40,405 nt of DNA, from positions 1 to 40,405 of the forward strand of contig SYHW01000041.1 of the NCBI GenBank assembly GCA_005799065.1. The letters run 5' to 3'. Both the position numbers and the translations under genes were made by a program. Position 1 is the stretch's first letter. Each line of letters begins with the position of its first letter. Of the stretch, positions 32,858 to 40,405 are shown piece by piece. The notes under the pieces are model-generated. The model searched no databases and was not told the origin of the DNA. It saw nothing but the letters and a program-made list of their open reading frames with translations. Source of the stretch: Bacteroidota bacterium (GTDB taxonomy: Bacteria; Bacteroidota; Bacteroidia; UBA7662).

Positions 32858-33055
32858 ATGAAACTGATCCTGAGTATTGTGTCTGTGGTTGCCTGTCTGG
32901 GCTTCTTCTCGTATCTTTTTTTCCTTGGTGCTACCCTCCCGGATGCCATACAAGCCCGCGATATGCTGATTTTGTGCGGACTCCTGGCTGTGGTGAGTTA
33001 CTTTATCACCCGTGGCGCATTTGAAGATGTAGACCGCGAGCGTGGCAAAATCTGA
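32858..33055 (+). CDS. Small two-helix membrane protein
   Basis: 65 residues from ATG 32858, after a -7 box; a 15-codon longer frame would cross that box. Two hydrophobic segments (~3-25 and ~36-52) with a short loop, then a charged tail 'GAFEDVDRERGKI'. No family recognised. Its TGA overlaps the fur ATG (TGATG), so the two are translated together. Whether it takes part in metal homeostasis is only positional inference. Confidence 0.65.
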   Translation: MKLILSIVSVVACLGFFSYLFFLGATLPDAIQARDMLILCGLLAVVSYFITRGAFEDVDRERGKI

Positions 33056-33498
33056 TGAATTCTGAATCAGAAGCACTGCTTCGTAACCACGGATTGCGGG
33101 TGACGGCCATAAGATTGAGTGTGTTGAACGCATTGAACCGCCGCAGTTTCGCCCTTTCCCAGTCCGAATTGGAAGTCGACCTTGGTGGCAGCTGCGATCG
33201 GGTAACCCTCTACCGAACGCTCAATACACTTTGCGAACATGGATTGCTTCATCGCATTATGGATGAAAAGGGCACTTCACGTTATGCACCCTGCCGCGAC
33301 GATTGTGGGGCCACCGATTGGCATTTTCACACCCACCTACACTTCTTCTGTCAGCATTGCCAAGAAACCCGATGCCTCAACGAAACAGAAATAGCTATTC
33401 CAGCACTCAAGGATGGTTTTGAGATTCATAACGTTCAATTTTCCGCCTCCGGAATTTGCGGGCTTTGCAAAGCGAAGGACCAGAATCCCCAAACCTGA
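33055..33498 (+). CDS. Fur-family transcriptional regulator
   Basis: 147 residues. N-terminal winged helix ('HGLRVTAIRLSVLNAL', 'CDRVTLYRTLNTLCEHGLLHRI') and a C-terminal dimer/metal domain with 'HFHTHLHFFCQHC' and 'SGICGLCK', giving the two CxxC pairs of the structural zinc site. The sensed metal (iron, zinc, manganese) or peroxide cannot be decided from the residues seen. Target genes are unknown. kynU begins just after its stop. Confidence 0.93.
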   Translation: MNSESEALLRNHGLRVTAIRLSVLNALNRRSFALSQSELEVDLGGSCDRVTLYRTLNTLCEHGLLHRIMDEKGTSRYAPCRDDCGATDWHFHTHLHFFCQHCQETRCLNETEIAIPALKDGFEIHNVQFSASGICGLCKAKDQNPQT

Positions 33499-33503
33499 AG
33501 TCA

Positions 33504-34766
33504 TTGAAGAACCCGCCGCCCCTTCCTTCATTAGCTCAGTACCGATCTGAGTTTCACATACCGCCTTTCGGGTCGGATGAGTTGGCTTATTTCGCTGGGA
33601 ATTCGCTCGGGCTGATGCCGCGCACGGTCCGGGCCATGCTCGAAGTAGAGCTGAACAGCTGGCAGGAACATGCCGTGGAAGGTCATTTTCGCGGACAAAA
33701 CCCTTGGATGCATTATCATCATTTGTGCACCCCTTCGCTGTCCAAGATAACCGGGGCGGAAGAAGATGAGGTGGTGTGCACCAACAGCCTTACCACGAAC
33801 CTACATCTGCTGATGGTGAGTTTTTTCCGCCCGACGGATCAGCGCAACATCATCCTCATGGAGTCGGGTGCTTTCCCCTCCGATCAATATGCTGTTGAAA
33901 CACAGCTGCGCTTTCACGGACTCAACCCCGCCGATTGTTTGGTGGAACTCAAGCCAGCTGCTGGCCGCCGCACTTTATCGTCCGAACAAATCCGCGACGC
34001 CATCCACCAATACGGAAATCGGATCGCGCTTGTTTTGATGCCCGGAGTTCAGTACCAAACCGGACAAGTATTCGATATGGCAGAAATTACCCGCTTGGGG
34101 CACGCGGTGGGCGCTGTAGTTGGCTTTGACCTCGCCCATGCGGTGGGCAACATAAACCTAAAACTGCACGAATGGGGCCCCGACTTTGCCGTTTGGTGCT
34201 CCTACAAATACCTCAACAGTGGACCGGGCGGCCCGGGCGGATTGTTTGTGCACCAAAGACATGCGCAAAACCCCGATCTTCCACGTTTTGCCGGCTGGTG
34301 GGGACATGATGAATCGTCGCGTTTTGAAATGCAGCCGGGCTTCAAACCCATGCATGGGGCCGCCGGATGGCAACTCAGCAACGCCCCTGTTATGGGCATG
34401 GCCGCCCACCGCGCTTCGCTGGAAATATTCGATCGGGCTGGCATTGAGCACCTGCAGGTGCGTGCTGCAGCCCTCAGTGCATACCTCCGTCACAGACTCG
34501 AGGACATTCAACAAAGAAGGGGGCGCCATGCCATCGAGCTCATAACACCACATGAGCATGGTAGTTATGGCTGTCAACAGTCGTTTTCCGTTGGCCATCG
34601 CGGCGAAGAATTGCTTCGATACCTCCAGCAAAATGGCGCCCTGCTCGATTTTCGCAGACCCGACATACTGCGTATGGCGCCTGTTCCCCTCTACAACCAA
34701 GCCAGGGAAATCGACTTGTGTTGCGACTTGATTGACCATTGGCTCGAACAATATTCATGCACATGA
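33504..34766 (+). CDS. kynU: Kynureninase, non-ATG start
   Basis: PLP enzyme cleaving kynurenine or 3-hydroxykynurenine to (3-hydroxy)anthranilate and alanine. Landmarks: 'FAGNSLGLMPRTV', 'GVQYQTGQVFDM', 'GFDLAHAVGN', PLP lysine ~235 in 'WCSYKYLNSGPGGPGG'. No in-frame ATG occurs before 'GNSLGL', so translation must start at a non-ATG codon. TTG 33504, six bases after the fur stop, gives 420 residues; CTG 33495, overlapping that stop as CTGA, is the alternative. The 3' end lies in a 38-bp duplication with the receptor start. No other tryptophan-catabolic gene is adjacent. Confidence 0.93.
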   Translation: MKNPPPLPSLAQYRSEFHIPPFGSDELAYFAGNSLGLMPRTVRAMLEVELNSWQEHAVEGHFRGQNPWMHYHHLCTPSLSKITGAEEDEVVCTNSLTTNLHLLMVSFFRPTDQRNIILMESGAFPSDQYAVETQLRFHGLNPADCLVELKPAAGRRTLSSEQIRDAIHQYGNRIALVLMPGVQYQTGQVFDMAEITRLGHAVGAVVGFDLAHAVGNINLKLHEWGPDFAVWCSYKYLNSGPGGPGGLFVHQRHAQNPDLPRFAGWWGHDESSRFEMQPGFKPMHGAAGWQLSNAPVMGMAAHRASLEIFDRAGIEHLQVRAAALSAYLRHRLEDIQQRRGRHAIELITPHEHGSYGCQQSFSVGHRGEELLRYLQQNGALLDFRRPDILRMAPVPLYNQAREIDLCCDLIDHWLEQYSCT

Positions 34767-34815
34767 AAGCCCTAAAATGGCTCGAACAATATTCAAGCAC
34801 ATGAAAGCCCTAAAA
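34740..34815 (+). repeat. 38-bp tandem duplication at the kynU/receptor junction
   Basis: Units 34740-34777 and 34778-34815 differ at one base. Each contains the kynU tail codons, an ATGA stop/start overlap, and the first receptor codons. The first ATG (34763) opens a 13-codon frame, MKALKWLEQYSST, whose TGA overlaps the real receptor ATG (34801). Confidence 0.97.
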
Positions 34816-37191
34816 CTCGTTTTAACGGGCACTTACTTTGTGTTATATTTGTTTTCACAACTTAGTTTTGCGCAGAATAAGCCGGTTGTACTGAGTGGTT
34901 ACCTGCGTGAGGCGGGAAGCCGCGAGTCGCTGCCAGGAGCCGCTGTCTATATCCCTTCCCTCAAACAAGGCACCACGGCCAATGCCTTCGGATTTTACTC
35001 CCTTTCCTTACCCCCGGGTCAGTACATCGTTCAGTTTTCCTATGTAGGGATGGCGTCCATGATCGACAGCCTCGATCTCACACGATCCACCGTTTATGAT
35101 GTGGAGCTAAAACCGGGAAAGCAATTATCGGAAATAGAGATTGTTGGGGATGAGGCCGACAAATCCGGGGCCGCCACCCTTATGAGCCGTATGGAACTGA
35201 GTGGTCAGCAAATTGGTGCAGTGCCCACCCTTATGGGAGAGAAAGACCTGCTCAAAACCGTGCAACTCCTCCCTGGCGTGCAATCAGGTAATGAAGGTCA
35301 ATCCGGACTCTATGTGCGTGGTGGGGGCCCCGATCAGAATCTGATTTTGCTCGACGGTGCCACAGTTTACAACGCCTCTCATCTATTCGGGTTTTTTTCG
35401 GTTTTTAACGGCGATGCCATCAAGCAGGTGAGCCTCACTAAGGGGGGGTTCCCAGCCCGTTATGGTGGTCGGTTGTCGAGCGTACTCGATGTTACAATGC
35501 GTGATGGCGACAAAAGTCAATTCCGGGGGGAGCTCGGATTGGGCGTCATTAGTTCGCGCTTACTGGTGGAAGGCCCCATTGTTCGCAACAAAATGTCATT
35601 TGTGGCCGCGGGACGGCGTACCTATGCCGATGCCCTCCTTCTGCCCGCCCGCTGGATCACGGGCGAAGACCCCGGGGTGGGCTACTATTTCTACGACCTG
35701 AGTGGACGCATTCACTACGAAATCAACCGCAAAAATCGATTGTTTTTGAGTACCTACACCGGACGCGATGCGTTCGCCAGCAGGCAGGAACGCGACGAGG
35801 GCACACGGAGGGCCAACATCAGCTGGGGTAATGTGTCAGGAACCCTGCGTTGGAATCATTTGGCATCGGAACGCTTGTTTGTGAATACCACATTCATATA
35901 CACCGACTACCAGTTCAATACTTTTCTGCGCGAAAGCAGCGATGCACGAAACATCACTGCGGGATACTCCTCTGGAATCCGTGATTGGGGAATCCGAAGC
36001 GATGCGGAATATTTACCCTCACCTCGGCGAACAGTCCGAACCGGAATCTCCATACTCAGGCATCGTTTTGTGCCCTCGGCCTATGTACTGCTCGACGCAC
36101 TCGTTCCCGGATTAGGTACCCAGCGGGTCGTTCGTTCCTATTCGGTCGAATCGGGCGCTTATTGGGAGGAAGACCGAAAAATTGGCACCCGCTTGGAATC
36201 GAACATTGGTCTGAGGTTGAGTCATTTTACCGCCGACGGCCGCACCTACGGGCGGGCTGAACCCCGAGTAGCACTCCGTGCGCTCTTAGGTGCCGATGCA
36301 TCGATCAAAGCCTCCTGGGCTGTAATGAACCAATACCTCCATCTCCTCAGCAATACCGGAATTGGCCTGCCCACGGACCTATGGGTGCCGGCAAATGCCG
36401 CTGTTGGTCCGCAGCGCTCTCAGCAATGGGCAGCAGGTTATGAACAGATTTTGCGTGAAGGAAGATGGGTTTTCTCTGTTGAAGGATTCTATAAACAATC
36501 ACGTGATGTCATCGGCTACCGACCCGGCGCCAGCTTTCTACTCATCGACCCCGATGAACTCGATTCTGGCGAACCCCGAAGCATCAATTGGGAGCGCCAG
36601 GTTACGCAAGGCCAGCAGGAATCTTATGGTGCCGAATTCTTCTTACAAAAGAAGAAAGGGATGATCAAAGGATGGCTGGGTTATACGTTGTCTCGCACGT
36701 GGTTGCAGTTCGACGAACTTAATTTGGGCGAACGCTTCCCGGCACGCTACGACCGCCGCCACGACCTTAGTCTTTTCGCCTACCACGAGCGGCCTCGGTC
36801 TGAGGCGGAGGGCCGCACACGAAGAATCAGCGGCGCCTTTGTTTTCGGTACAGGTAATACCGTTACCATCCCTTCTGGCTTGTTTCAAGCCCCTTATCCT
36901 GTTGCCCCGGGCAACCCCAATCCAAACCCCTGGTTTCCCGTCTATGCCACCGACTTTGGTCGACTCAATCAATACCGCCTGGCACCCTACCACCGCTTGG
37001 ACCTGTCCATTCAATGGAGTAAAAAGAAAAAATGGGGCACGCGCAGCTGGGAGATCAGTGTCTACAACCTCTACAACCGAGCAAACCCGTGGTTCATCGA
37101 TGCCGTTCAGCGCCCCAACGGCACCGAACTGGTTCAGTACAGCCTGTTCGGGATCGTCCCTGCCCTTAATTATCATTTTCGTTTCCGATGA
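34801..37191 (+). CDS. TonB-dependent receptor with carboxypeptidase-like N-domain
   Basis: 796 residues from ATG 34801; ATG 34777 adds eight residues and is possible. Signal peptide ending 'LSFAQ'. CarboxypepD_reg-like beta-sandwich (~30-115), plug domain ('VQLLPGVQSGNEGQSGLYVRGGG', 'LDGATVYNASHLFG', 'GGFPARYGGRLSSVLDV'), and a C-terminal 22-strand barrel ending 'LNYHFRFR'. Such receptors import large or scarce substrates using TonB energy. Substrate unknown. The next gene is the DUF4249 partner with ATGA overlap, a pairing usual in Bacteroidota. Confidence 0.95.
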   Translation: MKALKLVLTGTYFVLYLFSQLSFAQNKPVVLSGYLREAGSRESLPGAAVYIPSLKQGTTANAFGFYSLSLPPGQYIVQFSYVGMASMIDSLDLTRSTVYDVELKPGKQLSEIEIVGDEADKSGAATLMSRMELSGQQIGAVPTLMGEKDLLKTVQLLPGVQSGNEGQSGLYVRGGGPDQNLILLDGATVYNASHLFGFFSVFNGDAIKQVSLTKGGFPARYGGRLSSVLDVTMRDGDKSQFRGELGLGVISSRLLVEGPIVRNKMSFVAAGRRTYADALLLPARWITGEDPGVGYYFYDLSGRIHYEINRKNRLFLSTYTGRDAFASRQERDEGTRRANISWGNVSGTLRWNHLASERLFVNTTFIYTDYQFNTFLRESSDARNITAGYSSGIRDWGIRSDAEYLPSPRRTVRTGISILRHRFVPSAYVLLDALVPGLGTQRVVRSYSVESGAYWEEDRKIGTRLESNIGLRLSHFTADGRTYGRAEPRVALRALLGADASIKASWAVMNQYLHLLSNTGIGLPTDLWVPANAAVGPQRSQQWAAGYEQILREGRWVFSVEGFYKQSRDVIGYRPGASFLLIDPDELDSGEPRSINWERQVTQGQQESYGAEFFLQKKKGMIKGWLGYTLSRTWLQFDELNLGERFPARYDRRHDLSLFAYHERPRSEAEGRTRRISGAFVFGTGNTVTIPSGLFQAPYPVAPGNPNPNPWFPVYATDFGRLNQYRLAPYHRLDLSIQWSKKKKWGTRSWEISVYNLYNRANPWFIDAVQRPNGTELVQYSLFGIVPALNYHFRFR

Positions 37192-38072
37192 ATCTGCGGA
37201 TTTCATACCTATGGCTGTTGATGTCTGCGTTTGCCTTATCAAGCTGCCGAGAAACCCTTATTGGCGTTCCCGATATCGATTTTCCACCGCGCATCGTGGT
37301 GGGTTGCTTCATCGACCCCTCCTACGACACCCTCACAGCCACCCTCAGCTTATCCATGCCCCTCTATCAAGAAGGCAATGAAGAGGATTTTCGGGGCATC
37401 ACCGATGGAATTATTGTTCTGGAAGGGGCAGGAATGGTGGATACGTTTCGATACGATACCGTTCGGCGGCACTACCGCTTGCCTTCGTCGGCAGTACCGA
37501 TCCTTCCCGATTCGAGCTATACCCTGAGGGTGTACCGTTTGCGTTCCGACACTGTTCTGCTTGGATCTGCTCGTTGCACTGTTCCGCCACGCCGAAGTCC
37601 CATGGTCGAAGTAACAGCAGAGCGCGACAGCAGCGCCCCTACTCCATTCTACCGCGAATTTGTGAACCTTGTTGTGCGGTGGCCCGCACAAGCATCACCC
37701 GAACGCTATTACCGAATGTTGTACGGACTCAAACAACGTTCGGCAACCGATTCGGCCATCAGTTGGATCAATGATGCGCCTGGCAAACCCCAGGTGTTTA
37801 CGGGTACCGACGCAACCGATGGTTTTATACGGGTGAGCGACCGTTTCGTATTTTGGGGATGGGGTTCGCCCACAGTTGGGCGCACAAACGCCATCGTATG
37901 CCTTCAGGAAACCGATGTTCATGCCTTCCGCTACCTGAATGCACTGAATGCACAGATCAACCAGCCCCCAGGGCCCTTTCAGGAAGGGGTCTTGCTGTAC
38001 AGCAACATTGAAGGCGGATTAGGCTGTTTTGGCGCTTCTAACACCTATTTTATTGAAAGTCAAGACCTATAA
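37188..38072 (+). CDS. DUF4249-family lipoprotein
   Basis: 294 residues. Lipobox 'AFALSSCRE' near residue 20. The mature part shows DUF4249 features: 'IVVGCFIDPSYDTLTATLSLSMPL', 'GIIVLEGAGMVDTFRYD', 'LPDSSYTLRVY'. The family always accompanies TonB receptors and is thought to be a surface-exposed accessory lipoprotein; ligand unknown. Overlaps the receptor stop by four bases. Confidence 0.9.
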   Translation: MNLRISYLWLLMSAFALSSCRETLIGVPDIDFPPRIVVGCFIDPSYDTLTATLSLSMPLYQEGNEEDFRGITDGIIVLEGAGMVDTFRYDTVRRHYRLPSSAVPILPDSSYTLRVYRLRSDTVLLGSARCTVPPRRSPMVEVTAERDSSAPTPFYREFVNLVVRWPAQASPERYYRMLYGLKQRSATDSAISWINDAPGKPQVFTGTDATDGFIRVSDRFVFWGWGSPTVGRTNAIVCLQETDVHAFRYLNALNAQINQPPGPFQEGVLLYSNIEGGLGCFGASNTYFIESQDL

Positions 38073-38135: not shown

Positions 38136-39212
38136 ATGAACACTGCACTCCACAACTTTTCGGCTGGCCCTGGTATTCTACCCCCATCTGTTATTGAAGC
38201 CTCTGCACAAGATCTCGTGAACTTCAGTGGCACTGGTCTTTCGGTCATTGAAGTATCGCACCGCGGCAAGGAGTTTGTGGCTGTGATGGACGAGGCCCGT
38301 GCTCGTGTGCGCCAACTGCTGCAATTGGGCGGCGACTACGAAGTGCTGTTTTTACAAGGTGGGGCGAGCCTTCAATTTTGCATGGTTCCCTACAATTTGT
38401 TACCCGAACAGGGGATGGCCGCCTACCTCAATACCGGGGTTTGGGCTACCAAAGCCATCCAAGACGCGCGTCTATTGGGGCGGGTGGAGGTCGTGGGCAC
38501 CTCAGAAGACCGGAATTTTTGTTATATCCCTCGCAACTATTCCATCCCATCCGATGCTGCCTACCTTCATATTACATCCAACAACACGATTTTTGGCACC
38601 GAAATGCATGCATTTCCCGAAAGTCCTGTGCCATTGGTTTGCGATATGTCGTCCGATATTTTTAGTCGACCGATCGATGCATCAGGTTTCGGGTTGATCT
38701 ATGCCGGCGCCCAGAAAAACATGGGGCCAGCGGGCACGACCCTCGTGGTCGTGAAGCGCGAACTTTTGGGCCGCTCCGGGCGACGACTCCCAGCCATGCT
38801 CGACTACGCGGTGCACAGTAAGGGCGACAGCATGCACAATACACCCCCTGTTTTCGCGGTATTGGTATGCATGCATACCCTTCGCTGGATTGAGGATATG
38901 GGTGGGTTATCGGCCATGCAACAGCGCAATCAGGACAAAGCGCAACTTTTATATTCCGAAATTGATCGAAATCCACTCTTCCGGGGCACGGCGGATCTTG
39001 CCGATCGTTCGCTGATGAACGCGACCTTTGTGCTGATCGATGAGCAACATAAGTCGGCCTTCGATGCGCTGCTCAAAGAAGCCGGAGTCAGCGGATTAGA
39101 AGGTCATCGGTCGGTCGGTGGATACCGCGCCAGCATGTACAACGCCTTACCCCAAAGCAGTGTTCAGGTGTTGGTGGATGTGATGCAAGATCTGGAACGG
39201 AAAAATGGTTGA
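38136..39212 (+). CDS. serC: Phosphoserine aminotransferase
   Basis: 358 residues, standard length. Converts 3-phosphohydroxypyruvate and glutamate to phosphoserine (and acts in pyridoxal phosphate synthesis). Landmarks: 'NFSAGPGILP', 'GTGLSVIEVSHRGKEF', 'FLQGGASLQF', PLP lysine in 'YAGAQKNMGPAG', and C-terminal 'GLEGHRSVGGYRASMYNALP'. Followed by serA, 100 bases away, separated by a 15-bp repeat array that starts in the last serC codons. Confidence 0.97.
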   Translation: MNTALHNFSAGPGILPPSVIEASAQDLVNFSGTGLSVIEVSHRGKEFVAVMDEARARVRQLLQLGGDYEVLFLQGGASLQFCMVPYNLLPEQGMAAYLNTGVWATKAIQDARLLGRVEVVGTSEDRNFCYIPRNYSIPSDAAYLHITSNNTIFGTEMHAFPESPVPLVCDMSSDIFSRPIDASGFGLIYAGAQKNMGPAGTTLVVVKRELLGRSGRRLPAMLDYAVHSKGDSMHNTPPVFAVLVCMHTLRWIEDMGGLSAMQQRNQDKAQLLYSEIDRNPLFRGTADLADRSLMNATFVLIDEQHKSAFDALLKEAGVSGLEGHRSVGGYRASMYNALPQSSVQVLVDVMQDLERKNG

Positions 39213-39285
39213 CGGAGAAATAGATGACGGAGAAATAGTTGATGGAAAAATAGATGACGGAGAAATAGTTGATGGAAAAATAGAT
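39196..39285 (+). repeat. 15-bp tandem repeats across the serC stop codon
   Basis: Units 39211-39225, 39226-39240, 39241-39255, 39256-39270 and 39271-39285 are of type GACGGAGAAATAGAT/GTT or GATGGAAAAATAGAT. A diverged zero copy (39196-39210) is still coding. Because 15 is a multiple of three, the serC frame meets a TGA in most units, giving several stops in series. Confidence 0.95.
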
Positions 39286-40255: not shown

Positions 40256-40405
40256 ATGCCTGAATTTCGGCCATTTCGTCCGTTTCTTCCCAAGCAGGAG
40301 GCTATGCCTCGCTTATTTAGAATAGAAAAGCCACTAACGAAGGAGGGGCACCAAACGAAGGAGGGGCACCAAACGAAGGAGGGGCACCAAACGAAGGAGG
40401 GGCAC
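40256..40405 (+). CDS. Start of a probable DUF1015 protein (truncated by window edge)
   Basis: Open from ATG 40256 to the window end (50 codons, no stop), with one base between the serA stop and this ATG. It begins MPEFRPFRPFLPKQEAMPRL, similar in pattern to the 'PFRxxRP' N-terminus of DUF1015 proteins, and serC-serA-DUF1015 is a usual order in Bacteroidota (from memory). After residue ~27 it runs into a 6-residue repeat, TKEGHQ, of at least 3.8 copies, not expected at that site. Confidence 0.5.
   Translation, partial: MPEFRPFRPFLPKQEAMPRLFRIEKPLTKEGHQTKEGHQTKEGHQTKEGH
40337..40405 (+). repeat. 18-bp exact tandem repeats at the window end
   Basis: ACGAAGGAGGGGCACCAA is at 40337-40354, 40355-40372 and 40373-40390, and the first 15 bases of a fourth copy end the window. 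All are identical. In the open frame they encode TKEGHQ. Confidence 0.95.

Follow-up and report, generated by a model that had tools for sequence, protein, structure and literature searches.

The stretch of DNA analysed here, called the window in what follows, comprises 40,405 nucleotides of a Bacteroidota draft genome (G000; 69 contigs, 1.86 Mb, 85% complete) and carries, all on the forward strand, a row of four closely packed genes. A Fur-family regulator gene (33055–33498; Pfam FUR, 3.6e-08) is followed by kynU, coding for kynureninase (33507–34766; TIGR01814, score 400.8 bits, cut-off 246.4), which likely starts at a TTG codon, as judged from its relatives, and ends with a TGA at 34764–34766. 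Downstream lie a gene for a TonB-dependent receptor of 796 amino acids (34801–37191; Pfam Plug 1e-10, CarbopepD_reg_2 3e-12) and a gene for its DUF4249 partner protein (37188–38072; Pfam DUF4249, 4.2e-20), which overlaps the receptor stop by 4 nt. The names kynureninase and TonB-dependent receptor, the latter with carboxypeptidase-regulatory and plug domains, are sound.

The junction between kynU and the receptor gene was found to be duplicated. Two repeat searches, one of them with Tandem Repeats Finder (TRF), returned two tandem copies of 38 nt at 34740–34777 and 34778–34815 as the sole direct repeat within 34400–35200. They are identical at 37 of 38 positions (97%), a match far beyond what chance could account for. 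Copy 1 contains the genuine kynU C-terminus and stop together with a first ATG (ATG1), copy 2 the receptor start (ATG2), and both carry the 4-nt ATGA overlap of kynureninase stop and receptor start (34763–34766 and 34801–34804). The kynU TGA thus overlaps ATG1 (34763–34765), which opens a mini frame of 13 codons, MKALKWLEQYSST (34763–34804), whose own TGA (34802–34804) overlaps ATG2 (34801–34803). The first-pass annotation had described this duplication and the chain leading from the kynU stop over a short frame to the receptor start, and had read the frame as a chimera of the receptor N-terminus and the kynU C-terminus; in all three respects the present coordinates bear it out.

Two further features had been overlooked. 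The only mismatch between the copies, T34758 in copy 1 against A34796 in copy 2, creates an additional ATG upstream, at 34757, which reads in the mini frame and lengthens it to 15 codons, MHMKALKWLEQYSST (34757–34804). The joint between the copies (AAAA/TGGC) creates another ATG at 34777, this time in the receptor frame and 10 nt past the kynU stop. Starting there, the receptor would comprise 804 amino acids beginning with MARTIFKHMKALKLVL, that is with eight extra residues, MARTIFKH (34777–34800), ahead of the regular MKALKLVL. No microhomology was seen at this joint, and simple slippage is therefore not an obvious source of the duplication.

The age of the duplication was addressed by comparison with three other species of the genus (G001, G002 and G003), each represented by one genome. 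After correction for orientation, the alignment showed one copy and a single plain ATGA overlap in each of them. The stretch matching 801 bases of the window measured 763 bases in G001, 764 in G002 and 763 in G003, the missing 38 bases corresponding to one copy. The two-copy junction shared by all relatives, which the first-pass annotation had seen as the case against its reading, was thus not what these three species carried. Head-to-tail, near-identical local copies absent from close relatives are the mark of a tandem duplication from the general repeat process of the genome; the conservation expected of a regulatory intercistronic small ORF was not seen, the mini frame being absent from all three congeners. 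Neither did any of these aligned relatives have the eight-residue receptor extension. At the mismatch site G001 has an A, which indicates that copy 2 kept the older base and that copy 1 changed, altering the end of kynureninase from Ser to Cys. Judging from these alignments, the duplication is most simply younger than the split from G001, and it is specific to the G000 lineage. The neighbourhood itself predates it: several family members outside the genus also have the receptor gene behind kynU on the same strand. There, however, the receptor match begins 45–145 nt past the kynU match and without overlap, so that tight coupling is not an old requirement.

The existence of the mini frame, striking as it looks, follows from arithmetic. 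We argue here from the sequence itself and not from the output of a tool. In an ATGA overlap the start precedes the upstream stop by one base. When such an overlap is duplicated with a tandem period p, ATG1 enters the C-terminal kynU frame of copy 2 if and only if p = 2 mod 3, that is when p+1 is divisible by 3, and this frame is by definition free of stops before its own TGA. A period of 3n+2 suffices, and an exact chain is therefore the by-product of one in three tandem duplications of any ATGA overlap. Duplications in the other phases yield either an N-terminal extension in frame or some unrelated short frame, and every phase restores both real genes. Selection is thus not needed to explain the mini frame. 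Copy 2 also carries, along with the receptor start, the 23 nt of its upstream context; given this preserved context and the alternative ATG at 34777, neither coupling nor initiation would depend on the mini frame.

Tandem duplications are common in this genome. TRF, run on 1.54 of the 1.86 Mb with periods of at least 10, found 216 arrays. Intergenic spacers held 109 of them and gene interiors 63; a stop was covered by 33, a start by 8 and a stop/start junction by 3. These class counts are approximate, since genes were called by a simple hexamer method that missed small ones such as Fur. Periods divisible by 3 were found for 59 of the 63 arrays inside genes against 39 of the 109 between genes, which indicates that duplications arise in all frames and that selection removes the harmful ones. 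G000 and its nearest relative G001 have 13.8 and 13.7 arrays per 100 kb, respectively, G002 has 4.6, and other Bacteroidota, sampled at 79 kynU loci, have 3.7; short tandem arrays are thus about three times denser in the first two genomes. An enrichment of duplications on tight same-strand junctions was considered and discarded: three were observed against 0.4–2.5 expected, depending on the rate used, which is not clearly above background. Other arrays in the window include one at 39197–39285, where the last codons and the stop of serC are copied in tandem into the following spacer, and one at 1873–1949, where the same has happened to a gene ending at 1897. The contig end itself lies within a perfect 18-bp array of 3.9 copies (40336–40405), which probably caused the assembly break.

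Duplicated junctions were also found elsewhere in the clade. Between two genes that we take to be glpK and glpD, named by sequence recognition rather than by a family search, G000 has an array with an 18-bp unit (contig C17, L136:6712–6831, minus strand). Each unit copy forms a whole frame of five codons (MKRIL, MNCTL or MNRTL) and ends in a TAA that abuts the next ATG. Five such frames intervene in G000 and four, of the type M[K/N]RIL, in G001 (L249); in G003 the junction is single, and G002 carries a degenerate repeat of 55 bp that is unrelated. Six of the 18 unit positions vary, none of them within the ATG or the TAA; a hand calculation that ignored the relatedness of the units put the chance of this without selection at about 5%. 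That the mini frames stay intact in both genomes despite internal substitutions is only a hint that some chains may be maintained. The second case is the junction ahead of a cdsA-like gene, with a TGATG overlap, present in five to six copies of a 25-bp unit in G000 (contig C16, L135:4346–4487); this array is out of phase and results in overlapping frames of 12 codons. In G001 the same junction (L255) holds two copies of a 23-bp unit in phase, encoding MKLNDRA followed by a stop, with the TGATG kept, and in G002 it is one ATGA overlap. Finally, at the fur-kynU junction of G001, TRF and inspection by eye revealed an 18-bp array (L228:1568–1612) whose mini frames end 10 nt before the TTG start of kynU. 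Exact in-phase chains were hence present in three of five junction arrays, not significantly more than the expected one in three. The sampled parts of G001 and G002, with 146 and 171 same-strand pairs, respectively, contained no further junction arrays among the genes called, the caller missing small ones.

As to translation, the contexts of ATG1 and ATG2 were nearly the same and scored at the 77th and 81st percentile of G000 gene starts, whereas ATG 34777 reached the 25th. Shine-Dalgarno control of ATG1 or ATG2 was rejected: no motif was visible before either, and of 712 confidently called starts in the genome just 22 had one. Bacteroidetes are reported to use such motifs for neither kind of initiation (PMC6728339). 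RNA structure does not seem to be a controlling feature either, accessibility being ordinary at all starts; at the receptor start the mean unpaired probability was 0.46 in G000, 0.52 in G001, 0.43 in G003 and 0.38 in G002, with a genome median of 0.47. The ATGA overlap is the commonest spacing in G000 (63 of 775 same-strand pairs). If the mini frame were not there, 34 nt would separate kynU from the receptor gene. In Haloferax volcanii and E. coli, overlaps of −4 couple tightly, and hardly any coupling is left once about 20 nt lie between the genes (PMC10666635).

The reading we favour, and hold to be probable, is that of a recent junction duplication, ordinary in a repeat-prone lineage, with the mini frame as a forced by-product that is most likely translated as a side effect. 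A tandem duplication, one of many in the lineage, copied the overlap of kynU and receptor gene; it probably survived, nearly neutral, because a unit spanning stop and start leaves both genes whole, copy 1 ending kynU and copy 2 beginning the receptor. Ribosomes terminating on kynU would restart at ATG1, as they presumably did formerly at the ancestral receptor start, stop again after 13 codons, and a fraction of them would restart at ATG2. The receptor would additionally be fed by fresh initiation at the preserved start at 34801, and restarts at ATG 34777 might perhaps add to its synthesis. If anything, a smaller fraction of receptor synthesis would be coupled with two serial reinitiation steps than with one. 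A function of the mini frame is possible.

The alternative that comes next makes the mini frame a functional relay: the receptor would have to be strictly coupled to kynU, and the duplication would have been tolerated only since its period kept both overlaps. The overlaps are indeed exact at both ends of the mini frame, similarly exact chains exist at glpK-glpD in G000 and G001, where TAA abuts ATG, and at cdsA in G001, and the variation within the glpK-glpD units spares start and stop codons. However, the wrong phase was tolerated at cdsA in G000 (period 25) and at fur-kynU in G001 (period 18), the proportion of exact chains did not differ significantly from expectation, and the separation of the two genes outside the genus speaks against an old need for tight coupling. 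We therefore regard such a relay as unlikely. This also qualifies the earlier suggestion that termination-reinitiation could be kept despite the insertion: a stop/start overlap is available at both steps, but the frame that provides it is a one-in-three outcome in a genome with 216 arrays. The companion idea, that the copy number could tune translation of the receptor, found no support, the species being represented by one genome with one copy-number state.

Alternatively, ribosomes leaving kynU may restart 10 nt on at ATG 34777, so that the receptor gains MARTIFKH ahead of its likely signal peptide, and the mini frame is a bystander. This ATG is in the receptor frame and preceded by AAA, including an A at −3, a base favoured at this position in Flavobacterium johnsoniae (PMC6847099), and its distance of +10 from the stop belongs to a class known in E. 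coli (PMC10666635). Its upstream context as a whole nevertheless ranks only at the 25th percentile of gene starts, the extension occurs in no relative, and we consider its use quite unlikely. That copy 2 arose through an assembly error, as a fragmented draft and the sole genome of its species in the comparison might suggest, is highly improbable given that the copies differ at one base, that the sister genome G001, which was assembled separately, also has arrays at glpK-glpD and cdsA and that G000 holds many other arrays.

The favoured reading of an ordinary duplication can be set beside known systems. As in the ATGA and TGATG pairs described for termination-reinitiation (PMC6728339, PMC10666635), the ancestral kynU-receptor junction was a plain ATGA overlap; here, however, the overlap is duplicated, so that ribosomes would have to reinitiate twice, with a mini frame in between, to pass from one gene to the other. 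The papers found on coupled overlapping genes do not describe such a duplicated overlap with an intervening mini frame. Salmonella mgtQ, situated between mgtC and mgtB (PMC8092293), is likewise a short frame inside an operon that might affect translation of a downstream transporter. In contrast to the kynU-receptor frame, a recent chimera of neighbouring gene ends, mgtQ acts via acidic codons and alternative stem-loops. The TAACTGA repeats of Beggiatoaceae and some Bacteroidetes, for which a role in translation was proposed (PMC4679880), are also short direct repeats, many per genome and near start codons, but they consist of one heptamer genome-wide, whereas the G000 arrays each copy their own local sequence.

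A broader and quite speculative proposal, to which we would give little credence at present, would be that in G000 and G001 the duplication of overlaps repeatedly builds relay chains (kynU-receptor, glpK-glpD, cdsA), of which the in-phase ones are kept since they carry ribosomes between genes, the repeat number determining how much downstream protein is made relative to the upstream one. The glpK-glpD chains and the cdsA chain of G001 constitute a natural test of relay reinitiation. The value of the present case lies in this small natural series of duplicated junctions within one clade, in which the lineage supplies junctions with no mini frame, with one and with five, in phase as well as out of phase. 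If the chains are not translated, they would illustrate how doubling a gene junction can leave both genes unharmed and how a short chimeric ORF with an appearance of design can arise with a chance of one in three. If they are translated, they would offer natural constructs for serial ribosome reinitiation and for the loss at each step.
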